64,000 bases of DNA from Paragorgia papillata (taxonomy: Eukaryota; Cnidaria; Anthozoa; Scleralcyonacea; Coralliidae). Shown here piece after piece: positions 40,429 through 63,377 of this stretch. A program made the translations under genes and the position numbers. The notes beneath the pieces are model-generated. The model did not search any database and was not told the origin of the DNA. It saw nothing but the letters and a program-made list of their open reading frames with translations. Within the stretch, counting starts at the first letter, position 1; each line of letters starts with the position of its first letter. The stretch spans positions 1,412,001 through 1,476,000 of the forward strand of contig JAWNZC010000100.1 of NCBI GenBank assembly GCA_035771165.1. The letters run 5' to 3'.

Positions 40429-41577
40429 CTGTAATATTTCAATCAACTTGTTTTCTGACTGGCTAATGACATTACATTTTTTACTTGGGGTATTTAAGAA
40501 AAAGTACAACACATCCAGACCATTCACAATTAATACTTCTTTTCATCTGCCAAACTGGGGTGATGCTATTTCATGCAATATGTTTTGATGCAATATAAAT
40601 GTCAAGTCAGTTTGGCAATAGAAACAAGTACTGACCATATTAAACAAGTCAAACTGTAAAACTGTTACTGCTGGGCAGTGCAGAAGTTAATCACAAACTA
40701 TGATTTAAGTACTAAGTTAAGTAAAGTATGTTTAAAACAGTTCAAGAGTGAGATGGAAACATGTAGTTTTACATAACGTTGCTGACACTAAAGATTCCAT
40801 GCGGTCTTCATAATTGGGTAGTTATTATAATTAAATTAATTTATTAATTTAGTTAATTTTTGTAAGAATTACAATAAATATTTTAAAAAATAAATAAGTG
40901 TTTCATGCCTTAAACTTACCAAATGAATTTTGGCCACAACAGTGTTATGTCATAAAGTATATGTATATTAAATTTTCCAAATTAGCTTTACCGCCAACAA
41001 AACAATGGCTGAAAATCCCAGTCAGCAGTAATATCATAAATTCGTTCAATGAGTTATGTTTGATCTCAATTTTAAGCTGTTGTGCTATTGTTCATTTATT
41101 ACAGTGATGAATGATTTGCATCAGTGAAATTCGGTTTGAATTGCACATTTTGGGTACTGTAAATCATCTGGGTATCTTCATGACTTTATCTATATATTAG
41201 GATATTGAAGATGACATAGTGCTGCCTTATAGTTACTGTAGGATAAGAGATCATTTTTAAATTTAGTTATAGCTGTCACCATGATAACATTTTACTTACT
41301 TGTTATGGTTGTCTTTGTATTGGTTTTGGGTTTATGAATGTTACCTGTGACACATTTTGCTTATTTGTATAATTATATAATAATATATTACATTATGGCC
41401 TGAGCATGCGAGTTCGTTCATGTGCGTTTACCTTGATTATGTGTGTTTCCTCCAATCCGGGGTCCTAACTTTGCATGGCATATGGATGGATATGACAAGC
41501 TGCATAGATTTGGTCTTGATATTCATGCTTGTGTGGATGGGTATGCATGTTAGACATACATTAATTTTTGTTTGTTG
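40429..41577. other. Gene-free interval
   Basis: AT-rich; no gene or element recognised. Confidence 0.4.
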
Positions 41578-42807
41578 AAAGCACGGAGTGTAGAAAGCAC
41601 GGAGTGTAGAAATCACGGAGTGTAGAAAGCACGGAGTGTAGAAAGCACTGAGTGTAGAAAGCACGGAGTGTAGAAAGCACTGAGTGTAGAAAGCACGGAG
41701 TGTAGAACTCACGGAGTGTAGAAAGCACGGAGTGTAGAAAGCACTGAGTGTAGAAAGCACTGAGTGTAGAAAGCACGGAGTGTAGAAAGCACGGAGTGTA
41801 GAAAGCACGGAGTGTAGAAAGCACTGAGTGTAGAAAGCACTGAGTGTAGAAAGCACTGAGTGTAGAAAGCACTGAGTGTAGAAAGCACTGAGTGTAGAAA
41901 GCACTGAGTGTAGAAAGCACGGAGTGTAGAAAGCACGGAGTGTAGAAAGCACTGAGTGTAGAAAGCACGGAGTGTAGAAAGCACGGAGTGTAGAAAGCAC
42001 GGAGTGTAGAAAGCACTGAGTGTAGAAAGCACGGAGTGTAGAAAGCACTGAGTGTAGAAAGCACTGAGTGTAGAAAGCACTGAGTGTAGAAAGCACTGAG
42101 TGTAGAAAGCACTGAGTGTAGAAAGCACTGAGTGTGGAAAGCACTGAGTGTGGAAAGCACTGAGTGTAGAAAGCACGGAGTGTAGAAAGCACTGAGTGTA
42201 GAAAGCACGGAGTGTAGCAAGCACTGAGTGTAGAAAGCACTGAGTGTAGAAAGCACGGAGTGTAGAAAGCACGGAGTGTAGAAAGCACGGAGTGTAGAAA
42301 GCACTGAGTGTAGAAAGCACGGAGTGTAGAAAGCATTGAGTGTAGAAAGCACGGAGTGTAGAAAGCACGGAGTGTAGAAAGCAGGGAGTGTAGAAAGCAC
42401 GGAGTGTAGCAAGCACTGAGTGTAGAAAGCACGGAGTGTAGAAAGCACTGAGTGTAGAAAGCACTGAGTGTAGAAAGCACGGAGTGTAGAAAGCACGGAG
42501 TGTAGAAAGCACGGAGTGTAGAAAGCACTGAGTGTAGAAAGCACTGAGTGTAGAAAGCACGGAGTGTAGAAAGCACTGAGTGTAGAAAGCACTGAGTGTA
42601 GAAAGCACGGAGTGTAGAAAGCACTGAGTGTAGAAAGCACGGAGTGTAGAAAGCACGGAGTGTAGAAAGCACTGAGTGTAGAAAGCACTGAGTGTAGAAA
42701 GCACTGAGTGTAGAAAGCACTGAGTGTAGAAAGCACTGAGTGTAGAAAGCACTGAGTGTAGAAAGCACTGAGTGTAGAAAGCACTGAGTGTAGAAAGCAC
42801 TGAGTGT
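41578..42807. repeat. 16-bp minisatellite, about 77 copies
   Basis: Unit GAAAGCACKGAGTGTA, with K = G or T. Copies are almost invariant except at that one position, plus rare changes (AGCAAGC, GTGGAAA, GCATTGAG, GCAGGGAG, AACTCACGG). As 16 is not a multiple of three and the unit lacks stop codons on the minus strand, all three minus frames are open for over 360 codons; these are not genes. Confidence 0.97.
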
Positions 42808-44492: not shown

Positions 44493-45620
<1,128 letters not shown>

Positions 45621-45629
45621 CCCTTACGA

Positions 45630-46075
45630 AAAATTCCTATAGGATCCTATAGGAATTCCTATAGGAAATTTGAATTCCTATAGGAATTCCTATAGGAATT
45701 AAATATTCCTATAGGAATTCCTATAGAAGCTAAATATTCCTATAGGAATTCCTATAGGAAATTTGAATTCCTATAGGAATTCCTATAGGAATTAAATATT
45801 CCTATAGGAATTCCTATAGAAGCTAAATATTCCTATAGGAATTCCTATAGGAAATTTAAATTCCTATAGGAACAAACTTTCCTATAGGAAGTTGAACAGG
45901 AATTCCTATAGGAATTACACAACCCTATAAGAATTCCTATAGGAATTTCACAACCCTATAGAAATTCCTGTAAGGTTGAGAAATTCCTATAGGAATTTTA
46001 TTAGGGTACACAAACAAGTTCTGAAAGGAATTCCTACTGGAAAATCAAATTCCTATAGGAATTCCTATGCTGGTC
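45630..46075. repeat. Array of TTCCTATAGGAA palindromes
   Basis: The 12-bp palindrome TTCCTATAGGAA, often fused as AATTCCTATAGGAATT, occurs about 25 times with short AAAT, GAAGCTAAA or CACAACC spacers. Isolated copies continue to about 46350. Confidence 0.9.
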
Positions 46076-46854: not shown

Positions 46855-48681
46855 CTAATTGTCATTAATTTGGTAAGGAAGTGGGCAAAAGTACTCATTA
46901 CCTCCAAGAGTCAATGAAACACACTTTCTCTTGATATGATGAGGGTAAATTGCAATTTGCATCCCAGCCTGTTTTACTCCCACTAGGAAATGACTGGTTG
47001 TCTTAAAATCAACATCTCTAAATAATGGCCTACCACACACAGCCATTGGCTGAATTAATACTACATGAAAACACCTACAGTTACAATATTGCAACTCAAC
47101 TAAGCTACATGAGCATTCTGGCTTTATAGATAAAAGACCTATAATAACACCATATGTAAATCGGCCATGCTCAAAAGATACATTATAGTTGACATGCTTT
47201 TTGGAGCGAACACATTCTATACTAGAATACAAATGGTGATTTGCTACAAATCTAGAGTACATAAATCCAGACTGTTTGTTTACTTTCAAACCTAATAATT
47301 GTTCGATATCAAGTACCTGTGAAGCTGTAAGTTTAACAGGTCTCTCCTTGCCAAGGCCACGAATTCCATCAGAAAGGACTTCCCCACTTGAAGTAACTTT
47401 GCCATCCGTTAACTTTTTATACAAACTGGTGACCAAAGGACAAGTTTCGTCATTGATACACTTGTTAGCCAATAGAGTAATCTTTCTTCTTTGAATAAAA
47501 GATTCCACAATTTGTTTTGGGACATACTGTGTTCCATGAAACATCTGGTGCAAGACGTGATTGTTCGATTCAAAGATGAATGCAGAAGATGACCATAGTG
47601 GACCACAGTTTCTCACTGACTGGGCAAGATGAATCAATTGATGCACATTGAATGAGCAGCATTTCAAACCATATAATTCTTCCACTAGAATAACAAATTT
47701 TGTTAAACAAGCTTCAGCAGAATTTATGGTACTCTCATCAATTGAATCACCCAGAAGGCAGTAAACTCCATATACAAACAGGAAGAGGTGATTGAGGAAT
47801 GCTGGAGGTAGGATGCCATGAAGAACCACTAGGCTGTAAAAGATGAATGCCCTCCATTCTGATGCCTTCCAGTAACTTCTGTCAGTGAGAGATCTGGGTG
47901 CACGGCTGATTTCACTGGGGACATTGATGGCAAGTAATCTTTCATTGACAATTTCTTGATCCCTCTTGCTAATGTAGTAGGGTTTTTCATTTTGTTTACT
48001 GTCCATCCATAAATTAACAAACTGTCGCATGACACCTAGACAGACACAGTGCATGAAGTCCACTGCAACTCCCCTTACTGATTCAAATGAAGGAAGGATG
48101 TTAATTACAGATGGACCTTTCACTCCCTTAACAGCTTCATTTTTGTGAAGGGATTTAAGGGCATACTGCATTTGCTTTGTGGCAGTGCGCATCTTTGGAG
48201 GCCCTCTATATGGGTAATATCGAGTCGGAGGGCCACCATTGGAAATTGTTTCACCTGGAGCCTCACACCAATCGCAACCATGTTGTCCATTAAATTGTTT
48301 ACAGTTCTTTACAATGGCTCTTGCTTGTGAATCAGCAGAAAGGACCATTGCAAAAACTCTCCTTGGTTGGAGATCATGTTCAATGCTAAAACCATTCTCT
48401 TCCAGCTGTTTACACTCTTCCACAAATGGCTTTAAGAAAGTATTCATGGCAGGCTTTCTATCACCAAACCATAAGCCATTCAGCATGATATGCTTGCCTC
48501 GCAAATGTGGAGGTAGTTCATTTATCGAGCTTTGAATTGGCCAAATTGAATACCGTGATGATTCAAAAACTGGAATTCCATCGGTATTCCACGTCAAGGT
48601 CAGGTCATTGTTGGACAAGTTATGTCTTTCCACTAATTCACGGTATAACATGGCAGATGTTGTATCAGAAATGGCCCCAGT
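46855..48681 (-). pseudogene. CACTA/EnSpm-like transposase, 3' part of last exon
   Basis: A minus ORF, open from the insertion boundary at 48681 to the stop at 46855, carries the catalytic region. It contains TWNTDGIPVFESSRYSIWPI (first Asp at 48580-48582), NELPPHLRGKHIMLNGLWFG, a CDWC pair, VAVDFMHCVCLGVMRQ (second Asp at 48058-48060) and SAFIFESNNHVL (Glu at 47569-47571). The order of motifs matches CACTA/EnSpm-like (Transposase_21-type) proteins of animals. AATAAA on this strand lies about 35 bp past the stop. The ORF has no internal lesion, but is cut off from its N-terminus by the 10.75-kb insertion starting at 48686. Family by motif recall. Confidence 0.85.
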
Positions 48682-48704
48682 TGTTGGCTGTGTGCACGAT
48701 GTTG
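48682..48704 (+). repeat. Left target duplication and TIR of the nested element
   Basis: TGTT (48682-48685) followed by the terminal repeat GGCTGTGTGCACGATGTTG. It matches the right TIR at 17 of 19 bases. Confidence 0.85.
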
Positions 48705-48717
48705 ATACCCAAAGCCG

Positions 48718-48935
48718 TAACAGGCACGCTCTACCGTGCCTAACCGTGCGTAAGGCACGCTCTACCGTGCCTAGACCGTGCCTAACACTAATCAGGCACG
48801 CTGCTAATTAAGTGGACCGTGCCTAGCACCACTGTGGTCCCGGCATTGAAATGATGCGACGCACGGTCGGCTAATGAATATTATCCGGTGAACATTTGCC
48901 GACCGTGCCTACTTGGCACAGTAGGCACGGTCAGA
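48718..48935. repeat. Left subterminal ACCGTGCCTA repeats
   Basis: About ten copies of CCGTGCCTA or its inverse TAGGCACGG, plus GTGCGT variants, in both orientations, starting about 30 bp inside the left end. Such clusters are typical transposase-binding arrays. Confidence 0.8.
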
Positions 48936-50275
48936 TGTCTCAGTTGGTGACAGCAATTATCAACGCGAGTAAAATGAGTTGATGTTTTTTTAGTGCGCGT
49001 TGAAACCCTTGTACCGGATTTGATTTTATCAAATTGCGTGTCATTTGCATAGAGTGCGTCTATTTTCGTTATGCGTATTTTTTATGAGTACGACGGAATG
49101 TGAACCGAGTATTCAGTTCCAATATATGAAAGCATTAACAAAACAAAATAATACACGATTTCCTTATAAATTTAGCCCAAAGGTAGGTTTGTATATCTTT
49201 TGCATATACACCAAAGACGTAGTGTGAACGCTGCCGTATTCTTAACGAAGTCGTCGAAGACCTTGCGTTCACACAATAACCGGAATGATTTGAATCCCTA
49301 ACGCCAACCGCGTACGATATGAAACCGAAACGGAACGACTGCTTAATCAGCATCGTTGAAACATTACCTGAACGTTTTTGCCACAATTTTACGATTTTAT
49401 CTTTTCTCTCTGTGTAAAAAGTACAGAGAAAAACCATAAAATAAGGGAATAAACAACTCTTATGCGCTCAATGCCGTGAGGGCATGAAGTGATACGGGTA
49501 CAGTGTGAACAGTTTGGTACATAACGATTGCGTACGCGGGTATAGTGTGAACGCCGTCTTAGTCTTTCTTTGTTTGCATGCAGATTGTGTCTTCTCTACA
49601 GTCTTCGATTATATTCTAGATCTTTTTAACCAGTTGACATCATGCAACGCAATTATGACTGTATATATTCTTTTCAGAATGTGTTTGTGTGGCGTTCATA
49701 CTTTAATAGCGTGTCGAATTGATGAAGTTGATAATTAAATTAAAATTACTAGTTCCTTCCAATTGTCAATATTTGGCATATGTTTGAGCGTGCTGTGGAT
49801 GACGTTATTTCTTTCGTAGGCAAGGTTTGCACGCAATATTGTTTTGTACTATTGAATCTTTACGAATCTACGGAGTAACACCTTACATCTATCTGCGCAG
49901 CACTATTCTTTTCAAATACTCAAAAAGCACAACAAATCTGTTTATATTGCGGGAAAATGACTACTCTAAGACAGCAAATAGCTAGTTTACAACCCAGAAG
50001 GTACGGATTGTTTTTCTTTCCTCTGGATAATTCACTGGAGCCAGTCAAGACATCGAACATCAAAGAGGGGACAATTATTCAAGAAGGGAAGATGGTGCAA
50101 CTTTATTGGGATAAGAAAAACCCAGATCTACCTGCTAAAATTATCTTTTTAGAAGGTATGTATGTGTCCATTATGCAGCTATTTTTCTCTTTGAGGCCGA
50201 CTATTTTACTTTTGAGCCTTGAGTGGAATTTGCGTGATCAGTTTTGAAAAACAAATAAAAGGCAGTATTAACTTA

Positions 50276-50508
50276 GGGGGTGTTCATTATATAATTGAGA
50301 TTTATATTCAAATAAACCCTTCAATTATAAATCCCATAAAAAAGAACTAACTTTTTGTCCGTAATGACTTCATCCCGGTAAGCGGGACGATGTGTTCATA
50401 TGGGAAAATTTCATCCCGCTTACCGAGAGCTGCTACCATATGAACACAAGACAGACTTCGTCTCGCTTACCGGTCAGCCCGCTTACTGGGATCATATGAA
50501 CAGCCCCC
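50276..50508. mobile_element. MITE 1 in the BEN-like gene intron
   Basis: Ends GGGGGTGTTCAT and ATGAACAGCCCCC, with CATCCCGCTTACC words inside. Related by ends to 15134-15642. Confidence 0.6.
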
Positions 50509-50510
50509 AA

Positions 50511-50730
50511 AGCCCTAATCAAACGAGGACGCAAGTCATCGCAAGTTGGCAGTCAGAATTTCTGTGGCGGTCGTTTGAACACCCAAATTAACAAAATAAA
50601 GGTTCCATGAGTGTTTTAAACAAGTTTTAATTTTGTCACGGTACATGATATTTTCGGGAAACTATTCAGAGCGGCTGAGATAGCGTGACTGGCAACTTGC
50701 GATGACTTGCGTTCTCGTTTGATTAGGGCT
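50511..50730. mobile_element. MITE 2 in the BEN-like gene intron
   Basis: AGCCCTAATCAAACGAGGAC at the left and its inverse at the right (GTTCTCGTTTGATTAGGGCT), TIRs about 45 bp with few mismatches. Confidence 0.75.
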
Positions 50731-51046
50731 TAAAGGCCTAGCCACATTGTTAAACAATGTTGAAAATGTTGAAAGTACGAGTGGCCAAATGAATTCAACA
50801 TCGTTCAACATTCATGAATGACAATTAATTGAACGCGGGCTACCACAAAAGCTGGAATCGACAATATCCCGCATGGCGCATGTCTCTGTTCAACAAAGTT
50901 GAATGAAATGTGGCCAAATGCGTTCAACACCTTTCAACAACGTTCAACATCATTCAACAGGGTTGGCCAAACGCTTTCAACATGTTGAATTCAACAATGT
51001 TGAACGATGTTGAATGAAATGTTGAAAGCGTTTGGCCAGGCCTTAA
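50730..51046. mobile_element. MITE 3 in the BEN-like gene intron
   Basis: Ends TTAAAGGCCTAGCCA and TTTGGCCAGGCCTTAA. The interior has repeated GTTCAACA/TGTTGAA words. Confidence 0.65.
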
Positions 51047-51167
51047 GACCTACGTCAAACGTCGAACCGGTTCATGTGTCGAATCTAATGCAAATCACCA
51101 TAAACAAAGGATCTAGCTCATTATTACATTCGACACATAAAACGTTCGACGTTTGAACTAGGCCTTA
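51044..51167. mobile_element. MITE 4 in the BEN-like gene intron
   Basis: TAAGACCTACGTCAAACGTC at the left and inverse GACGTTTGAACTAGGCCTTA at the right; 124 bp, sharing the TTAAG junction with MITE 3. Confidence 0.65.
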
Positions 51168-51804
51168 GTCTCGCGTAGAATATTACGAATATATTAACAA
51201 AGGTATTCTAAGAATTATATATACATGCATGCATACCGAATATATATGATTGACGTTTGAAGCGAAGTTGAGACAAAATGGATTCGTAATTAGAACACAT
51301 GCATCTTACATTCTCTAGGGTGGACGGGACAGACGGCATATAGTTCTTGCAAGCACTAGCTATAAATGACATGTTTTCTATTGTCATCTACTTTATTATA
51401 GATAACTTAAATAAGCTGGAAGAGATGAGAACTGAGACTCTAAAAACAAGTCTAGGTGAGCTCATAACGGAAGATGACCGGAATTTTATTAACAATTGGA
51501 AGAAGGAAAAAGACAAAAAGTCCAGCAAACGGCCAGCTACTACGACTGATAAAGAAGCTTCAAAACCAAGTGTAAGAAGAAAGAAACGGAGAACCCATCG
51601 GCTGTTAGTCCAGGATTCACTAACTCTGCTCTACGACCTTACACCGTCCCTGAAACCAATAATCTTTCAACTGCTACGTCCTCTATCACTTCATCGTTTA
51701 TCTCTACTCAACAACCTTTAACTCTCACAACCAATAATCTTACAACTGTTCCATCCACTGCCACTTCATCCTTTATCTCTAATCTAAAACCTTTAATTCT
51801 AGAT

Positions 51805-52430
51805 CTCACAACCAATAATCTTTCAACTGATCTATCCCCAGCTGTCACTTCATCCTTCACCTCTAACCTACAAACTTCATCTGTCCCAACCACTGATAAT
51901 CTTACAACTGTTCCATCCACTGCCACTTCATCCTTTATCTCTAATCTAAAACCTTTAATTCTAGATCTCACAACCAATAATCTTTCAACTGTTCTATCCC
52001 CAGCTGTCACATCATCCTTCACCTCTAACCTACAAACTTCATCTGTCCCAACCACTGATAATCTTACAACTGTTCCATCCACTGCCACTTCATCCTTTAT
52101 CTCTAATCTAAAACCTTTAATTCTAGATCTCACAACCAATAATCTTTCAACTGTTCTATCCCCAGCTGTCACTTCATCCTTCACCTCTAACCTACAAACT
52201 TCATCTGTCCCAACCACTGATAATCTTACAACTGTTCCATCCTCTATCACTTCATCCTTTATCTCTAATCTAAAACCTTTTATTCTAGATCTCACAACCA
52301 ATAATCTTTCAACTGTTCTATCCACAGCTGTCACTTCATCCTTCACCTCTAACTTACAAACGTCAACTGCCCCAACCACTGATATTCTTTCAACTGTTCC
52401 GTCCTCTATCACTTCATCCTTTATCTCTAC
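51805..52430 (+). repeat. 162-bp in-frame repeat coding the Ser/Thr linker
   Basis: The start of the unit (CTCACAACCAATAATCTTTC) recurs at 51805, 51967, 52129 and 52291, exactly 162 bp (54 codons) apart. The peptide repeats TTNNLSTVLSPAVTSSFTSN and similar. The multiple-of-three period and absence of stops indicate selection as protein. Confidence 0.85.
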
Positions 52431-53831
52431 TCAACAACCTTTAACTCTCACAACCAATAATCTTTCACCCATCACTTCATCCTTCACCTCTAACCTACAA
52501 CCTTTAGCTGTCCCAACCACTGATAATCTTACAACTGTTCCATCCAATATAACTTCATCCTTTATCTCTAACGTAAAACCTTTAACTCTCCCAACGCCTT
52601 TAAGCGCGATAAATATCACACCACAATACTCGGACACAATTGATGTTTCTTCTTTCAGTCCCGAATCCGTCTACTCAAATACTTTTTCTATGCCCTGGGG
52701 TGGTTTTCCACTTAATTGCTCTCCTGGTTCAGCGGGTCAATCTGCAGATGCACGAGTCGTTACTCCTATGCAGCCAGATTTACATGGTTTTCCTGCAGAC
52801 GTAGATTTAATTTTTTCTGGTCCTTCAAATAGCACTGAAAACCTTTTACCAGGTCAAGCTTCATATTATTATCCGCATAATCCGAACATTAACGTACACG
52901 TTCCACCAACCATTGAACAACTGAAAGATAAGATGCTAAACATATCTCAGGAGATTGATACGGTTTTGGAAAATCAAAAGCTTATAATTTATCATCTCCG
53001 AAAGAATGGCGTTATTGACATACCATTAAATATAACAAGTACGATGCCAGTTCCAGCGGCTATTCCTATGGAACAGAATCAGCCTACACGTGTTCACCCT
53101 GTCGACTCACGGGACGCATCACAACACAATGTCGACGTAAGCGACGCACTACAAGGCAATTCATCAGAGTTTCATGGGAAGGAGCTCACAATGACAGAGC
53201 TTGAAGCTCTTAACAAAAAAAAAAAAAAAAAATACTACAGATGCCTACTTTGCCGTTTTGTTATTGAAAGAGTATACAGCACCCGAAGAGCGTATCAACT
53301 GTACTGTTCATGGAGAAGGTCCGAAATCAAAAGGGTTAAATTCGGATATTTTATCCAAAATAAAAAAAGGCTACGAGCTATTATATTCACCCGAGACATG
53401 GGGCGATGCTATAACTGCCATGAACAGTCACCTGAGAAAGTATTGTTCGACCAAGAAAAACTCAGACATAAATAAGACATAAATGTGCAAGTGATGTGTC
53501 TATTTTTCCAAAATTACCAACAGTAAAAAGAATATATTCTAGAATATATTAATGCCACTGCAAACCTTAGCATGGAATAAAAATATGTAAAGTTTATAAA
53601 TGATAAACAATTACATGAACCTTGGACCCTTACTGGTGAATAATTCATGCATTTCTCCATGCTATATGTATCGCTGGAGTGGCTATCGCCTTTGCTTAGT
53701 TTTTATGTGGAAGTAATTAGTATTACTAGTTGCAAATATTTCTCATTTGTTCGAACAGTTACGGATATATGTTTTAATGTAATTTTTTAGTGAATGTAAC
53801 CACAACTTGTCAATAAATATCATTAATTATC

Positions 53832-54010
53832 GACCTTATTCAAAAATGGCCGCCGAATTAGAATTATTTTATGTGCATATAAATTAGCCCTTATGACCTC
53901 GTTTTAAAGTAAAAATTATTTTGAATTTCACACATGAAAACGAGTTCATAAGGGCTAATTTATATGTATATAAAATAATTTTAATTCGGCGACCATTTTT
54001 AAATAAGGTC
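53832..54010. mobile_element. Palindromic MITE between the convergent genes
   Basis: GACCTTATTCAAAAATGGCC... and its inverse ...GGCGACCATTTTTAAATAAGGTC make a near-continuous hairpin of 179 bp. Confidence 0.75.
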
Positions 54011-54133
54011 TATTGTAATAAAATTATTCAACTTTAATAACAAAGAAAAGTATAACCTAAATCAGAACGAATTAAATTATCATACGCTCCATGCATGGCG
54101 TATAATAGTGTTTCTGTACAAATATTACAGCAC

Positions 54134-57100
54134 TTAAAATCCATGTAAGGACTCTAGAATATCCATGTGCAACTCTTCGATAATTTGGTAAATCTGTTGC
54201 TGGGTATCGGATTCGTTTACACGCAATTCCGGGCAAATATACCTTATTGTTGCAGCGTAAACGACAGCTTTTTTCTCCATATCTCGCTTATATTCACAAG
54301 GAGAACTCCTTCTAGCACTTCCGATAAGGAAACCATCCACGAATGATTTCTGCACCTGGTGGGTATGAAGCCCCCCAGTCATCCTTTTCCTCTGTCGTCA
54401 GTATCTCCGGCCCGTCACTAGTTACTTGAAGCAGGTAGTAATCCACTCCCCTGTCAGCAGAAGCAATAGCGACAATAGCATCTTTCGTTGCTAGGTTTTT
54501 TACTGCTTCTATATTATTTGACACGTCACTTCTGGTCACTGTTGCGCGATGATGTCCTCCTTCGTGTTCCAATTCTTGCTCTTCCCAGTCACTCACATAT
54601 TCAGAATTTTCGCATGAATCATAAAAACATTCCAAACATGCATCGCAATAACAAGACAGTTGCCTTGAACTAAGAGTGCAACCACCGTCTGTCGACAGTA
54701 TTGCATGAATTGACCTGTTTCCCTTGATCTCCTTAAAATACCTATCTCTTCGGTTGCGCAGGATGTCGTCGTCGTAGAAGAATATGCGCCGTTTCACTTT
54801 GACGTTGTCGGACTGGTATCGTGAAGGTGCAGGATCTTTCATTGTACTTTCCGCAAACTCGTACAACTCTTTCGCGTTTCGAATGACAACCTGTATATGC
54901 AAGATAGAACTTGATTTTAAACATGAAAAATATTCTGAAAATGACGCCCTGATGCAATGAATGTTGTGAAAAAGCACTTTAATTTATTAAATATATTATT
55001 ACCTGCCGTTTGATGACAGCCATGTCTGCCTTGTGTTTGAGGTTAGCCCCAGCACCATCTTGTGGTCCTTTTGCATGCGATGTTTCGAAGTAGTTACGAA
55101 TGGTAATGTACCCAAAATCTGAAGAAGATTGTGCAACGTCACCCATACAATGGCGGCTTTTGTACTGCGTCGAGCATCCGTCCGTCCATTCGTGCATGAT
55201 TTTCACGTCATACCCTATAAACCGTTATAGTGCTTGTAAGTCAAATTCGTAAAATATCACATGGAAACTATATTTCTTTTTCAGAAGTATTTATCCTGTA
55301 TGTAAACACTCGACAACTTTGCTCATGAACTGTTTAAAAGAGTTTACAAGAGCTGAGACATTTTGAAAAAGGCTAATTTTGAAAAAATTTAAAAGCACTT
55401 TACTGTCGTAGCAATAGAAGTGTTCCATAAATATTGTTGTAATTCATTTGCTCGTCCTGACCAATTCATTTTATGAAGTTCGTTGACCAACTTCCTGTTT
55501 TGAAATCTGATTGGTTTTTGACTAATAATCATATTTCCTATTGGTTGGTCAAAAAACAAGAACCAATCAAACTCGAAGCAGGCAGCTGCGCAACGAACTT
55601 CATCAAATGAATTGGTTAGGACGAGAAAATGAATTGCAACAATATTTTAGGAACACTTCTTTTGCCACGACAGTAATAAGAGATAAATATGGATTTAGAA
55701 GGATTTAGTACTGTATAAATTGTCACAGCCCTGGGTGTGGGGAATGAACCTTGATCTCCATAATGCAAATTTTAAATTATTCGCTGTAGCTTCCGCTTTG
55801 GATGTTTGAGCTGAAACAAAGAGGACTTACTTTCTCTATCAATACGAAGACTTAATCTCAGAGTCCGCACTCACTCAACTATTTCTCACTGATTTGTAAC
55901 CATTACTTTATTTTGAACGATAAGAGATATAAGAAAACTCTTCGGACTCTGAAGTCATTTATTTGTTTTGACTTGTGTGCAATTCGAGGCCAAATTTTAA
56001 TGTAATAGATTGAAAAGAGACAAAGATGTGAACTTTAAGACTTTGCTCTGATGAAAAATCACATTTTGGTGATATTACCTCAATATTACTGGATTGCGGT
56101 TGATTTTAATTATTTGGGTGCTGGGCCAAAAGTTCATAATTTAAAAAAAATGTTACAGTTACTGTAATTCATTAACTTTATTTTGTCATACCTATTTGCT
56201 TGAGATATCCATCCATGAGTTTTCTAGCGCTATGCACTGAGTGGTGGTCATGCTTACAGTCAGGAGAAATTACAAAAAGGTGTTCTGTGATAATGGATGG
56301 GTTTTCATCTGTGCTTTGTATTCCGTCTACATTCAATAGGGCATGGCGGTGAAGAATGGTTACGTGAATTGATGCTTGGACCTGGGAAAAATAAAGTGAC
56401 TGGATCTGATACTGCATGGTACACGTGTAGTTCTCCGAGTAGTCATGGACTGCTACGGTATGGCCTATGGGTAGATTCTCGACTATATCTCGAAGCTGCT
56501 GGTTTTGCCATTTAGCTCTGAAATGGTGGGAAGGATATGTCTGAAGGAGGTTTTTCAGGCAAGAAAAGATTTCACCAGGGAAGGTCAATTTATCAACCAA
56601 CTTCAGCTTCTTTTTATCCGAATTGTCAACGTTGACACCAATGACGACATACTCAAACTTTCGCCATTTTATTAATGGTGCGGCGTCAGTGGTATCCTCT
56701 TCATCCAAAACTTTAAAATCCACAATCCCACAATGTTTGCACTTTCGAAGAAGGCAATCTGTCTTGTGATAATCCTCACCTTCTTGTTTTGGGCACAACG
56801 TCTCATTTACCAAATCGGTTAAATGTTTGTAGACGATGTACTGTTCAGGCCGCTGGGAGAGTTGTCGTCTGAATTCCATGCATGATTGAAAGACCATCCT
56901 AGTTTCAACATGTATACGACAGCAACAAGTAATTCGGTCCTGGGACCTCGGTACAGCAATGTAAAAAGGTTTACAACTCTCAAAAGTACGCTGTCCCATC
57001 TTTATTTCTGGATATTTTTGTTTAAATTCCAGGTAAGCTTCGGTTTGCGTTTTTTCCAGGATTTGTTTCGGGTGGGTTACATAGGTCTTAGGTGCCAATC

Positions 57101-57988
57101 GCTTTCGGACTATGTCTCTTTTATTTGGAGTCGTCCGGGCTATTTCTGGGCTGGCCCAAAAATCGTGCGCAAGCTTCCGATGCTCTGTAGGAATGGCATC
57201 CGATCTGGTTCGTCGCTCAGTAAAACTCCAACATGATTCCTTACTTCTGAGAACTTTGGTGCGATGATTAAATGCTTTACCAACGCGTTTACGATTAATA
57301 TTAAGCATTTTCGAAACTTTGGTCTTCAAGCGTCTCTTTATAATTTCATCTCCACATAAAAAGCCAAGAGCTGTCGGGGTAGCAGCCCGAGAATCGTTCG
57401 AACGTTTACTTTTTGTGCTACTAACAGCATCATTTGCGTCACGCATCGCAGCTAAAGCAACTTCAGCTTCGTCACTTTTCTCTGCTGAAGATACGACTCC
57501 GAGACTTTCTAAACCTTTCCTCGTCGTCGGGCTTTCGATAAGCGCAGCTACCACAGCCACTTTCTTTGAGGGACTTCCGGAAGGGTTGATTTGGCTAAGT
57601 CAACTTGGCGCTTCTTAGACATTCTTGTAGGAAACGCCGATATACTGGACGCTTCATTACTGCGTTTGTCCCCATGCTTGTCTTTGTTGGATTTTTCTTG
57701 TTCCTTGTTTTCCTTGATCTGTTCTTTGCCTTTGGCCTTCGCCCTCTGCCTTTGTTTATAAAGCTTCCAGTTGTATTTCTTTGGTTTTGCACTGGTATCA
57801 CTTTCACGAACTTCCTCCAGTTCGGCGGCTTTTAATTCCTTAGCTTTCTTTCGCTTTTCACGTCGCTTACGATTGATGCTTTCTTTATTCTCCCGATAAT
57901 ATTTCAAACTCACACCGCTGATTTTTTCTTTCTTTTTCCTTTCGGCCTCCCTAAGTCTCCTTGTTTCACTGCTACTAGTTTTCCCCAT
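54134..57988 (-). pseudogene. Putative DDE-type transposase of the nested element
   Basis: Exon 1 (57988-56192) starts MGKTSSSETRRLREAERKKK, a long basic region. A frame change at about 57560-57600 leads into SPSKKVAVVAALIES, a Cys-rich segment (RITCCCRIH, CLLRKCKHCG), then VAVHDYSENYTC (Asp at 56442-56444), ITEHLFVISPDCKHDHHSV and DGYLKQIG. The splice ATAG|GTATGA to 55214 is in phase. Exon 2 (55214-55003) reads EWTDGCSTQYKSRH (Asp at 55180-55182) and NYFETSHAKGPQDGAGA (Glu at 55084-55086). Exon 3 (54890-54134) starts VVIRNAKELYEFAEST and changes frame near 54335 at a TTTCC run. D, D and E in this order with an H-K-D-G context suggest an RNase-H-like transposase. I recall similar uncharacterised invertebrate proteins but no family name. 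About 920 residues if unbroken. Confidence 0.6.
55401..55675. mobile_element. MITE in intron 1 of the putative transposase
   Basis: TACTGTCGTAGCAATAGAAG and inverse CTTCTTTTGCCACGACAGTA; arms of about 80 bp contain GTCCTGACCAATTCATTTTA. Confidence 0.75.
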
Positions 57989-58072
57989 TACCTTCACGCT
58001 ACAAATCACGCCGCAGACACAAGGACCTACAGTAGCTTTTGATATATGGAGTTTTACACCGTGCCTAAACAC

Positions 58073-58112
58073 TTGGCACGCCGTGCCTAAAGCATTAGGC
58101 ACGGCGTGCCAA
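58073..58112. promoter_or_regulatory. Perfect 18-bp palindrome of the subterminal motif
   Basis: TTGGCACGCCGTGCCTAA, loop AGCA, and the exact complement TTAGGCACGGCGTGCCAA. It lies 85 bp upstream of the probable start (57988) of the minus-strand gene. Another CCGTGCCTAA copy is next to it at 58059. Position suggests an operator or autoregulatory site, an inference. Confidence 0.6.
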
Positions 58113-58167
58113 AACTCTACGGACGACAATCGCGTGAATACAAAGTCTCTTTTTTACGGTACCATTG

Positions 58168-58169
58168 GT

Positions 58170-58202
<33 letters not shown>
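58168..58202. repeat. G homopolymer of about 34 bases
   Basis: Uninterrupted G run, a likely assembly weak point and a potential G-quadruplex. Confidence 0.9.
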
Positions 58203-58205
<3 letters not shown>

Positions 58206-58624
58206 GCGTGAATTGTGTCAAAATACATAATTGTATCCTTACTTAAAGAAAGGAGTATACGGACGCCATTAATCCCCCATTATATAAGGTACATTATACT
58301 GTTATTTGTTCATAATTAATTAGTAGTGTTGTATTACAACTGAAAAGAGTTAAAAAACCCACATGGAAATCAACGCACATTCTAAAATCTAGCTATACGT
58401 TCACGAATAGCTGTAATCCCACCTTGTAATTCTCTTTTAGAGGGGTTAGGTGAACAGGAAGATAGATAAATTTTTGGTTATGGTTTTTAAATATAAGTAT
58501 ACGCTCTACAATAAATGTCAAGTTAGCGTGCGAAAATAAAACATTTCGCTCATGTAATATCATAAACGCCTCACGCGCATATAGCTAGACAATGTATTGG
58601 CGTACCTGACGACTGATGTAAACC

Positions 58625-58835
58625 CTTACCGTGCCTAAACCGTGCCTAAACCGTGCCTAAACCGTGCCTAAACCGTGCCTAAGCCGTGCCTAATTGATGG
58701 GTTATAATACCGGACCGTGTATACAGACCTTGAGAATGCTTAAGAGGAAATTCAAACATGTCAAGACCGTGCCTAGTGGTATTTTACGCACGGTCATTGG
58801 AATGTGGAAGCGTGCGTCAGCGTGCCCAACCGTGC
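58625..58835. repeat. Right subterminal ACCGTGCCTA repeats
   Basis: Six tandem 11-bp AACCGTGCCTA units (58627-58693), then dispersed GACCGTGCCTAG, CGCACGGTC and CAACCGTGCG copies. They lie 600-800 bp inside the right end, farther in than the left cluster. Confidence 0.8.
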
Positions 58836-59418
58836 GTAAACAAGATACTAGCAAAGCAGTTTGGACAAACGTGGTTTACGATGATTTAACGCACTGTACA
58901 CTCATAGGATCGAAAATTAACTGGTTAAAAAAGAAGAACCTGTTAGCTTTGTATATTGTCATGGGTAAGAAGGCTGATTTGTACTATCTTATCTACGTAT
59001 CAAGGAACAATTATTGATTTGCGCTCCTCCACCTCTTGTGTTGGACAAATGGTTTTTGGTTGAATACATATATTTACACTCGCTAGAATGCAATGTGAAC
59101 GAAAAAATCGTTAGTTATTGAAAGTATGTTATTTTGTCATTCCCGTAAACAAAAATTCTGCCAGGAAAATATATTTCCTTAAATTTTACAAGCATGGTTT
59201 CGGTAAGCGTCGGTGATTTGTTACGCCAAAAATCACAAATTAACGAGATTATCGGTTTTTTTTTAAATTTCTGCTTCATTGCTGAAGTATTTGCAAACGT
59301 CAAGTTTGAATTAGGGACAAAACCGTTCTGTCAGATAAATTTTGAGCGGCATATAGTGTACTTAGTTGAATATTTTGGCCTACAAACGTGGAATTTGACC
59401 GTCCTCCATATTGTAAAC

Positions 59419-59441
59419 CAACACCTTGCACACAGCCTGTT
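59419..59441 (-). repeat. Right TIR and target duplication of the nested element
   Basis: Plus-strand CAACACCTTGCACACAGCC (complement GGCTGTGTGCAAGGTGTTG) followed by TGTT at 59438-59441. Confidence 0.85.
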
Positions 59442-59951
59442 CTGCATCTATTACAACTGGTTAGATACTGGTTTACATTTTCATTATGAAGTAAATCTTG
59501 GATTTGATCCTTCATTGGCAAATATAAGAAGTAATTTCCATTTTTCTCAAAGTTATCAACATTGAATCTTTCCTTACATGATTCACAATCTCCTTCTGCA
59601 ATATCTTCCCCCAAGTAAAATAGGCATGAAGGGCAGTAATAGTGGATCTGAAGAAAAGTATTTTGTATTACAATTATCAGTAAAAAGTTAACATTAAACA
59701 GGCCTTGATTCTATAAAATAACATGTATATACTACACAAACCCTGATTAGTCAATAACCATGTTTGGATCAGAGTATCTAAACACATTCAGACATAGTCA
59801 GTAACATCTTTTGCAGATTTTTGTTACTTTGCCTAATTCATTTTGTATGATAATTATGCAAAAAGTACCCAATGTCTATATCACACATTGCATAATGACT
59901 TATTGCAGAACTTTATATTTTTGTCCATATCAAGAGAACTAACAATGTTAA

Positions 59952-60243: not shown

Positions 60244-60653
60244 TGACAGCCACGAATGAGAAAATTTAACCTAATGGGATTCTTATTTATTTTCATGGAG
60301 ATGTATTAATTTAATTTAATCCTAACCTTTATAAGACATATAGTTATACAATATAGCAGAGCAATGGGATCAAAATTGCAATTAGTTTCAAGCAAGGAAA
60401 CCTCTATTTTGACTGTAATTGTTAGTACAGATTAATGAAATACCTGAAAATTTCCACCAGTTTCAAATGCCTTGAAGAATTTGTATTGTGTAGCTGGTAT
60501 TGAGCGAGGAAGCAAAACATCTAAGAGAAGCAGCAAATCTTTCAATGCTTCCTTTGTAAGAGTATGTCGGACCAGAAAAGTCAGGACAAGAAGCAGACAT
60601 TGCGACATGGTGACTTTTGCCCCTTCATATAAAGGCATGTCCCTTCTGTCTTC

Positions 60654-61457: not shown

Positions 61458-61885
61458 TTCATGGTTATCATGGTTACAGGTTTCTTCTTCAGTTTCTTCA
61501 GATTCAGTTTCTTCTTCAGTTTCATCTTGATCACCGTCGTAAGTGTCGTTGTCCTCAGGCTGCTCAGCTTCAGATGTGTCATGCATGTTGTTCAAATCCA
61601 GCTGGCAGAAATCATAATAATAAATATAAATATAAATAATATCTTCGACCAGAAGCAATTCTACACATCACAAACTGTTGCGGGCGTACCCATAGTTTTT
61701 AAATAAATGTATCAAAGACTCACGTGCTCATGATATCGTAAATTGTCTGACTCTTCGACTTCAGCCTCGTTTTCATTGTCTTCAACTTCTGAAATTCGTC
61801 GTTTACGTCTGTCGTAAAAGGTAGATTTGAGAACCACAACATTTGTATCAAACTCGTATTGTTTGTATGGTCCTCTTAGAGGCAT

Positions 61886-62296
61886 GTTCTTTTGGAAATT
61901 GAACCGATTTACTATGTCATTTCCTCTGGTTTGCAACAAGTTCGCTTGTATATCATTGGCCACACACAATCAACCCAGTTTATTAAAATTAATAGACTCC
62001 ACTAGGGTACATTTTAATTGGTTGAGGTCATGGCAACGTTTGGTCAATTAACCAATCAGAAGAGACATATAACCTCAACCTCGTACCCAGGGTATTTGCT
62101 AGAGTCTCTGCACATCCGGGTTTTCCGCATGTAGCAAAGGTGTTATAAACAGCCAATCAGAGTTTAGATTCATGACATCACCTGTGACATCTTTTGGCGT
62201 TTGTTTCAATTTCACTGCAGCGTTCGTCTGGTTGCTTTGGAGCAGATTTCTCGAAATATTTTCTAGTTTTACTATCACAGACTTTTGGGAAATACA
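61886..62296. promoter_or_regulatory. Divergent intergenic region
   Basis: 411 bp between the CACTA-like transposase start (minus) and the accessory-like gene start (plus). It contains AACCTCAACCTCGTACCCAGGG, similar to the ends of the 23.7- and 37.7-kb elements. No TATA box assigned. Confidence 0.4.
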
Positions 62297-63114
62297 ATGG
62301 AATTCGCATTGTTTGTGTTTTGTGAGGACAACAGTTGTGCTGTTGGCGAATGTAAATGGATAATTGACCAAGACGAGTCCACTTTTAATGACGAAGATTG
62401 GGACCATGACAAGGAAGTTTTGGTGCGCTGGCCAAAGACGAAGGACTACAATAAATGGTCTAGCAAAAATGGGAAATTTCCAGTTGATGTTGAATGCGAA
62501 ACAAAAACATATGTCACTCGAGTTTTAAAATTCAATGGTAAGTAATACTATTAAAGAATTTGTGTCTAATTGCGTTTCACTTATTACTATAATTGGCATG
62601 GCCACGTGTATAATTTTGTGATCGCTTCCCTTGACTCATATGTTCGCTGGATAAAAGCCGTTATTAATAAGTGTACCGTCCTTGATTTAATAGATCGATA
62701 CGACGCCATTCGCGGCTTCATGTCAAGTTACCTAGATACCGGTAGCACATTAACACCAATTCGAGGAAGAGGGAAGAGAACCGCTAAAAGAACCTCCCGC
62801 TACATGGACATGAGCGAAAATGATGAGATTCCAATATCAGTAAGTTCACTGTTGTCATCGTTTGCTTTTTAATTAATCCCGCATATTGGGGTTATAAAAT
62901 TTGGCCTTGATTACCCAAAAATGTATCCTGAGTATGAAATTACTTATAATTTATTAAGTAAGTGAAAATAAATTTTGTTCTGAAACTGAGAGTTATTTAT
63001 ATTTTCTCGCTTTTTTAGGCATCAAAGAAAATGAAGACAAAGAAGCACCTAGCCAATTCATCATTATCCCAATCACATATAGAACATTTGAGGAGAAAGA
63101 TTGCAAAGGAAAAG
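62297..63114 (+). CDS. Accessory-like gene with the nested BEN-like N-terminus (partial)
   Basis: Exon 1 (62297-62537) reads MEFALFVFCEDNSCAVGECK, then VLVRWPKTKDYNKWSS and TYVTRVLKFN, donor ATG|GTAAGT, leaving one base (phase 1). Exon 2 (62694-62839; acceptor TTTAATAG|) reads DRYDAIRGFMSSYLDTGSTL and a basic GRGKRTAKRTSR. Exon 3 (63019-63114) reads ASKKMKTKKHLANSSLSQSH and LRRKIAKEK. The F.LF.F..DNS...V......VxxxW..K pattern and the phase-1 intron directly after it match the BEN-like gene at 49957. The C-terminal domain would lie beyond the window. It is divergent from the CACTA-like transposase and could be part of the same element; that is inference. Confidence 0.55.
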
Positions 63115-63145: not shown

Positions 63146-63174
<29 letters not shown>

Positions 63175-63176
<2 letters not shown>

Positions 63177-63314
63177 ACATCAAAATACAAGTTTGAATTA
63201 CTTCATAAGAACTTTATTCACAACAAATTTGTTTCGTATGGCACTTGCCATACGAAAGAAATTTGTTGTGAATAAAGTTCTTATGAAATAATTCAAACTT
63301 GTGTTTTGATGTTA
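63175..63314. mobile_element. Hairpin MITE with ACATCAAAATACAAG ends
   Basis: TAACATCAAAATACAAGTTT... pairs with ...TTGTGTTTTGATGTTA in arms of about 68 bp, meeting at TATGGCA-CTTGCCATA. Confidence 0.8.
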
Positions 63315-63377
63315 TACCCACTCTGCTTCGGCATTGAGCAGTCTACCCGTATGATTTTGTACTCGATACTAGTTAAC

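Follow-up and report, generated by a model that had tools for sequence, protein, structure and literature searches.

What separates the two pieces of a transposase exon that lie more than 10 kb apart in the genome of Paragorgia papillata? The window analyzed here, a stretch of 64,000 bases (C100:1412001-1476000), carries on its minus strand a transposase gene of the tnp2 type whose fourth exon is broken in two. A preliminary description of this DNA, made from the sequence alone, had proposed that a transposon lies precisely within the exon of a CACTA-like transposase, at 48682-59441. Following it up with own-genome searches that covered the 618-Mb assembly (473 contigs), we are close to certain that two transposons are nested at this locus, an outer one that carries the broken gene and an inner, Sola-like one that entered with a 4-bp target-site duplication, each with its own gene content. 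The borders, the duplication, the restored reading frame, the other copies with the same ends and the gene content were all observed directly.

Borders of the insert and the interrupted exon

The inner transposon proper spans 48686-59437 (10,752 bp) and was placed on the minus strand, with its ends, duplication and other copies as the basis. It is flanked by the duplication TGTT (left copy, 48682-48685; right copy, 59438-59441) and has short terminal inverted repeats, as expected of Sola elements: GGCTGTGTGCACGATGTTG at 48686-48704 on the plus strand and its counterpart at 59419-59437 on the minus strand, which is equal to it at 17 of 19 positions. This end type is written GGCTGTGTGCA. Inside the ends lie the subterminal repeats CCGTGCCTA / TAGGCACGG, in 6 exact copies on the left (48734-48930) and 10 on the right (58059-58775), the latter including an 11-bp tandem array at 58628-58693. 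The window holds 959 inverted 19-mer pairs that match at 17 or more of 19 positions and lie 5-20 kb apart, and 519 of these have equal 4-bp flanks. A low-complexity filter removed 952 of the 959 (518 of those with equal flanks), leaving 7 pairs, of which the insert's is the only one with equal flanks. Markov-shuffled windows (n = 20) yielded 1-6 inverted pairs each, none with equal flanks.

When the flanks are joined on the minus strand with one TGTT, 699 codons are open from stop to stop, about 91 before the join and about 608 after it, and the codons at the join read AGA ACA|ACT GGG. The alternative frames stay open over the join for just 8 and 23 codons. The inserted length including one duplicate is 10,756, which is 1 modulo 3. 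The full outer gene consists of four exons on the minus strand and runs for 850 codons without a stop. Two of the three upstream exons, exon 1 (61724-61885) and exon 3 (60444-60653), were located via a relative, and exon 2 (61458-61601) was placed by its splice sites only; exon 4 comprises the piece before the insertion (59438-59647) and the piece after it, which extends to the stop codon (46855-48681). The latter piece matches Transposase_21 (PF02992), the tnp2-type domain, at 29.1 bits against a cut-off of 28.6, and a DUF4218 match in the protein falls below its cut-off. Homologues of the outer protein are numerous (516 found, 120 listed), and many of the 120 listed carry PF02992. The nearest named relative, LOC114543472 of the soft coral Dendronephthya gigantea, is 72% identical over the searched part and 56-74% identical when compared exon by exon.

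The end pattern of the insert occurs 22 times in the genome, while a reversed control pattern gave no occurrence. Beyond the two ends in the window, these are 14 ends forming 7 pairs and 6 single ends, and all 13 loci were fetched. Every one of the 7 two-ended copies is bounded by an exact 4-bp duplication, and these duplications differ from one another (CATC, CCCT, TAAA, TACT, TGGA, AGTA, and TTTC). The two-ended copies are 2,722-2,894 bp long, match the window element at 94.9-96.5% of aligned bases, and share an internal deletion that joins element positions 1327 and 9118. The deletion joint reads identically in 6 of the 7, as judged with an exact probe, and the seventh has the same breakpoints by BLAST; a single internal deletion has therefore been multiplied. 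One of these copies, L016, interrupts a repeat whose uninterrupted copy is present in the window at 50510-50736, which provides an empty site for L016.

For two of the single-ended copies, L017 and L018, the partner end was perhaps missed since the fetched stretch may be too short; they break at element positions 1285 and 9119. A genome search with the first 600 bases of the element returned 29 matches including itself, nine of which are confined to about its first 59 bases and one to its first 47. Two of the nine, L096 (C467) and L097 (C390), belong to a different family, being 98% alike over 2.2 kb and sharing with the inner element only the first 59 bases of the left end (57 of 59 identical). 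A search of viral_contigs with the end pattern gave 1 match, which we judged to be due to chance.

The outer protein matched 72 places in its own genome, with 65 of 519 candidates scored, and 30 loci were fetched, namely, the window itself and 29 other relatives. Of these 29, 24 align across the insertion site without an intron or an insert, one of them (L037) with stop codons at the site, and in the remaining 5 the match stops short of the site. These relatives are distant, with 49-56% identity over long stretches and down to 34-40%; the best reaches 62% over a 235-residue piece. At the DNA level, a 782-base piece beside the join found 8 matches, itself and 7 at 66-71%. No near-identical empty site was therefore found in the assembly, and the window holds the sole close copy of this gene that was seen. 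With its coding sequence broken, the outer gene is presumably no longer functional.

Together, these results bear out most of the preliminary description. The inverted ends and the TGTT duplication do define the borders, the stated codons are restored by joining with one TGTT, the interrupted sequence is a transposase exon, and the claim that the boundaries are known to the base is upheld by the duplication, the frame and the 7 of 7 copies with the same ends. Its range of 48682-59441 had the borders right but takes in both copies of TGTT. Of the checks it proposed, the look at further insert copies showed that they share their terminal bases with it and carry 4-bp duplications, and neither a normal intron nor unrelated sequence was found in the 24 outer relatives that cross the site; the search for an empty site was answered by these distant, uninterrupted relatives but not by a near-identical one.

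Genes of the inserted element

On the minus strand, the inner element carries a gene for a Sola-like transposase of about 860 residues, in at least four stretches and with frame breaks. The first coding stretch (57548-57988) is N-terminal and basic, with a frame break near 57,570, and is followed by the main stretch with the motif HDYSENY (56192-57575), an exon with EWTDGC and SHAKGPQDGAG (55003-55214), and an exon with RQLSCYCDAC (54312-54890). A second frame break lies at about 54,312, and the homologous C-terminal tail resumes at 54307-54137. Among the best 8,000 candidates scored, 102 relatives were found; the best of full length have about 900 residues and 60-62% identity, the top one 62% over the whole searched region. 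Three aspartates (D501, D596, and D637 in the numbering of P0001) reach 90% conservation or more across 50 aligned relatives and sit in HDYSENY, EWTDGC, and SHAKGPQDGAG, and nearby E residues are conserved too. Sola is a DDD family, and the 4-bp duplication, seen here as TGTT and in all 7 two-ended copies, together with the pattern of D residues would fit a Sola element.

No credible transposase family match for this protein was obtained in Pfam or NCBIfam, and a solved-structure search gave nothing useful for it or for the accessory protein described below. A search of the assembly with it gave 30 matches, and of these only the window copy is a full-length gene of its family, the remainder being a 47% fragment on C50 and relatives at 25-34%, some of them with long open frames. 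No relatives were confirmed in viral_contigs (36 pattern-matching stretches) or genome_contigs (32). Four relatives (P0048, P0065, P0068, and P0082) are filed under metagenome-assembled genomes of Sedimenticola, a bacterium; host DNA that entered the bins is a likelier source of these than a bacterial genome.

A second, accessory gene runs on the plus strand from 49957 to about 53480, convergent to the inner transposase. Its first coding exon (MTTLRQQIASLQPRRYGLFFF...) was placed at 49957-50154, and its middle part, which contains a 162-bp tandem repeat (51654-52589), at 51402-53214, with the border of the former and the start of the latter set by splice consensus. The reading frame changes across an A18 tract at 53215-53232, and the C-terminal segment that follows (53216-53470, plus strand) appears to be a divergent BEN domain without a Pfam hit. 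The protein has 9 homologues. PF10523 gave no match at E 1 to this domain, either in the C-terminal 90 residues of the homologues or in the window copy, and no BEN match at E 10 to the C-terminal 90 residues of the homologues. A profile comparison of the accessory C-terminus with 6 BEN translations of the same genome by hhalign gave a probability of 89.7 over 62 columns, with an E value of 1.9e-6 for a single comparison; one typed row in this comparison is a consensus-like blend. The transposase and accessory gene of the inner family seem to go together, as a rearranged locus on C50 holds parts of both in a space of 3.1 kb, and a contig of 834,372 bases is listed for one relative of each (P0013 and P0229). 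For the remaining 8 accessory homologues, no transposase relative is listed on a contig of equal length.

Palindromic repeats with arms of 63-104 nt were also seen within the inner element, at 50510-50731, 53829-54013, and 55400-55676. They are probably small transposons nested one level deeper. The repeat at 50510-50731 is found elsewhere in the genome as well and is the target of insert copy L016.

The outer element and its BEN gene

The ends of the outer element were found by locating where near-identical gene relatives cease to be alike. Own-genome relatives that are 97-99% alike each other end at GTAAGGG, and the outer element accordingly has ends of the form CCCTTACG... Its left terminal inverted repeat is CCCTTACGAAAAATTCCTATAGGA at 45621-45644 on the plus strand, and its right end lies 3,270 bp past the window, at C100:1479247-1479270, where it is the inverse of the left end at 23 of 24 positions. 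From 45621 the element spans 21,650 bp, or 10,894 bp without the insert. Inside the left end is an array of TCCTATAGGA palindromes (19 exact copies at 45635-46060), and 10 exact copies are present inside the right end, so that the outer element has the subterminal repeats that mark CACTA/EnSpm elements. The end pattern occurs at 465 places in the genome within 2 mismatches and nowhere for the reversed control. In the 10 pairs of this family that were tested, a 2-bp duplication was present in all 10 and a longer one in none, and at three loci around exact ends (L068-L070) the sequence matches 1.3-1.6 kb from one end of the outer element with about 94% identity. The outer copy itself is flanked by GA on both sides, which is weak evidence alone because it sits inside a microsatellite. 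The term CACTA-like in the preliminary description thus suits the protein, with PF02992 at 29.1 versus 28.6 bits, whereas the ends, CCCTTACG flanked by 2-bp duplications, do not bear it out.

CACTA or CACTG ends were sought on both sides of the gene, and no pair with equal flanks was found. One weak CACTT pair with 2-bp flanks near the gene was not believed.

Long GATGGACG and GATA arrays (44548-45620) abut the left end of the outer element, and GATAGATG follows its right end. Given these repeat arrays at both ends, the outer element sits in a GATA/GATG microsatellite. The window also contains a 16-bp tandem repeat of 77 copies with 95% matches at 41573-42807 and, as judged by eye, a long hairpin-like sequence beside TA repeats at 63150-63350.

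A BEN domain is encoded inside the outer element, past the window, at C100:1477506-1477646. It matches PF10523 at 40.2 bits (cut-off, 23.2) over positions 2-45 of 76, the first half of the domain. An open frame at 62267-62545 on the plus strand, head-to-head with the outer transposase and without a Pfam match of its own, is possibly the first exon of this BEN gene. On C297, C344, and C381, three further BEN matches fall inside pairs of outer-family ends that are 2 kb apart.

In the whole genome, PF10523 matched at least 121 places (150 of 209 candidates scored). We then asked how often these lie beside transposase genes of the outer type, counting 64 transposase places after 8 second pieces of the same gene were subtracted from the 72. 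A BEN match lies within 15 kb at 20 of the 64 places. In 500 control sets with shifted positions the count averaged 0.8 and never exceeded 4, a control that is somewhat low because contig ends were ignored. At 17 of the 20 paired places, including ones on C284, C23, C409, C381, and C148, the BEN match is upstream and on the opposite strand of the Transposase_21 gene, that is, head-to-head. No BEN match lies within 15 kb at the other 44 places. The window copy falls outside the 20 because its BEN domain, pushed away by the insert, lies at a distance of 18.6 kb.

Alternatives, proposed history, and related elements

Two alternatives would do away with the insertion altogether. The insert could be an ordinary large intron lying in the exon, as the outer gene does have three introns with consensus splice sites and its reading frame is intact on either side. 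However, the borders read GG...CC, with inverted ends and a duplication, rather than GT...AG, and the same ends occur elsewhere with 4-bp duplications of their own. By eye, an in-frame splice donor near the insert ends is far from the consensus. An inherited intron is already contradicted by the 24 of 29 fetched own-genome relatives that cross the site uninterrupted, and we regard an intron of any kind as very improbable. An assembly artefact that joined two unrelated loci deserves just as little credence. The frame breaks in the inner genes, one of them at the A18 tract at 53215-53232, do suggest assembly indel errors; a misjoin, however, would not yield a 4-bp duplication, a restored frame, and the exact ends of 7 other copies at once.

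A narrower alternative accepts the nesting and holds that the inner BEN-like gene and the outer BEN gene are host or repeat sequence present by chance rather than genes of the elements. It draws on the missing Pfam match of the inner domain, the abundance of BEN matches in the genome (at least 121), and the 44 of 64 transposase places without a BEN match within 15 kb. For the outer gene, chance placement is countered by the 20 of 64 places against a shifted-position maximum of 4 and by the shared upstream, opposite-strand arrangement at 17 of these 20; for the inner gene, it is countered by the rearranged locus on C50 and by the 834,372-base contig that carries a relative of each gene. We consider chance association unlikely.

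Several observations weigh against nested transposons or limit what can be claimed for them. Of the 101 alignments that span the join, from the 120 listed homologues, only 14 are without a gap within 10 residues of it, as the loop there varies by a few residues, and gaps close to it reach 6 in the own-genome relatives. Base precision at the join comes from the duplication and could not be had from homologues alone. A search of the assembly for an allele or near-identical copy of the outer gene without the interruption found none, and 6 of the 13 fetched copy loci have just one recognizable end. The frame breaks in both inner genes mean that the window copy is dead or that the assembly contains errors, and it is doubtful that this copy is still mobile. 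Finally, the Sola label is a putative one that draws on the general description of the family and on the length of the duplication.

Under the nested-transposon explanation, both elements are DNA transposons of the autonomous type. The outer one came first, in the GATA/GATG microsatellite, with a Transposase_21 (tnp2, CACTA/EnSpm-type) gene and a BEN-domain gene that lies upstream of it on the other strand. A Sola-like cut-and-paste transposon then entered exon 4, splitting the coding sequence between two codons. From what is established for cut-and-paste transposition, its transposase would have cut the target with a 4-base stagger (TGTT), and repair would have doubled the 4 bases. The CCGTGCCTA subterminal repeats are likely binding sites of the inner transposase, and the BEN proteins may bind DNA for the element, helping or regulating transposition or chromatin. 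The internal-deletion copies of about 2.8 kb may have spread with the same ends by using the enzyme of full-length relatives.

A joint reading of the two BEN genes goes further, and we put it forward tentatively, at somewhat less than even chances. BEN proteins could be regular companions of transposases in two or more unrelated superfamilies of animal DNA transposons, head-to-head with tnp2-type transposases and tail-to-tail with Sola-like ones. They would then probably be element-borne DNA-binding proteins that aid the transposase or shield the element from silencing, and host BEN chromatin factors may partly descend from, or have fed, such element genes. At this locus, one such element would have broken the other's only close transposase copy found in the assembly.

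It is rare for a single copy to reveal the borders of a large coding transposon to the base. Because the frame of the host gene, the duplication, and independent copies agree here, the element can serve as a type specimen. The nesting defines two families at once, by their ends, duplication lengths, and genes, and places them in temporal order. As nested transposons are common, nesting alone makes this a clear but ordinary case; the notable part is that two families are outlined and that BEN genes are paired with two unrelated transposon types. If the pairing holds in other animals, it would offer a testable reason for a transposon to carry a chromatin-type DNA-binding gene and a testable idea on the origin of host BEN genes.

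Compared with known systems, the outer element resembles CACTA/EnSpm in its PF02992 match above the cut-off, its DUF4218 match below it, its subterminal repeat arrays, and the 2-bp duplications of its family, which fall within the 2-3 bp of CACTA/EnSpm. It differs in its ends, CCCTTACG rather than CACTA despite the CACTA-type protein, and in the BEN-domain gene upstream on the opposite strand. The inner element would resemble Sola in its putative DDD-type pattern, whereas its duplications are not only AT-rich (TGTT, CCCT, CATC). PMC3627910 describes Sola2 elements whose ends measure 12-21 bp, whose duplications are 4 bp long, and whose putative transposase has 888 residues, close to the 4-bp duplications, short inverted ends, and transposase of about 900 residues in the inner family; the Sola2 elements described there carry a Fanzor gene where the inner element has a BEN-like one.

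As for the second genes, BEN genes are known in bracoviruses and chordopoxviruses, and the bracovirus BEN genes occur in moths and butterflies, according to PMC4574769; a BEN subtype, DUF4806, is reported in zebrafish genes in PMC11075544. Judged by titles and abstract openings, no report of BEN genes in DNA transposons was found among the papers listed. Of the two genes described here, the outer one is a BEN-domain gene (PF10523) above the Pfam cut-off and the inner one is alike by profile only; unlike known BEN proteins, both are transposon-borne, and the Pfam model misses the inner one because of its divergence. A parallel in organization is provided by the composite-like KolobokP transposons (PMC9587614), which are animal DNA transposons that likewise have a second gene beside the transposase, with a different transposase and with a homing endonuclease, by the title, in the place of the BEN protein found here.

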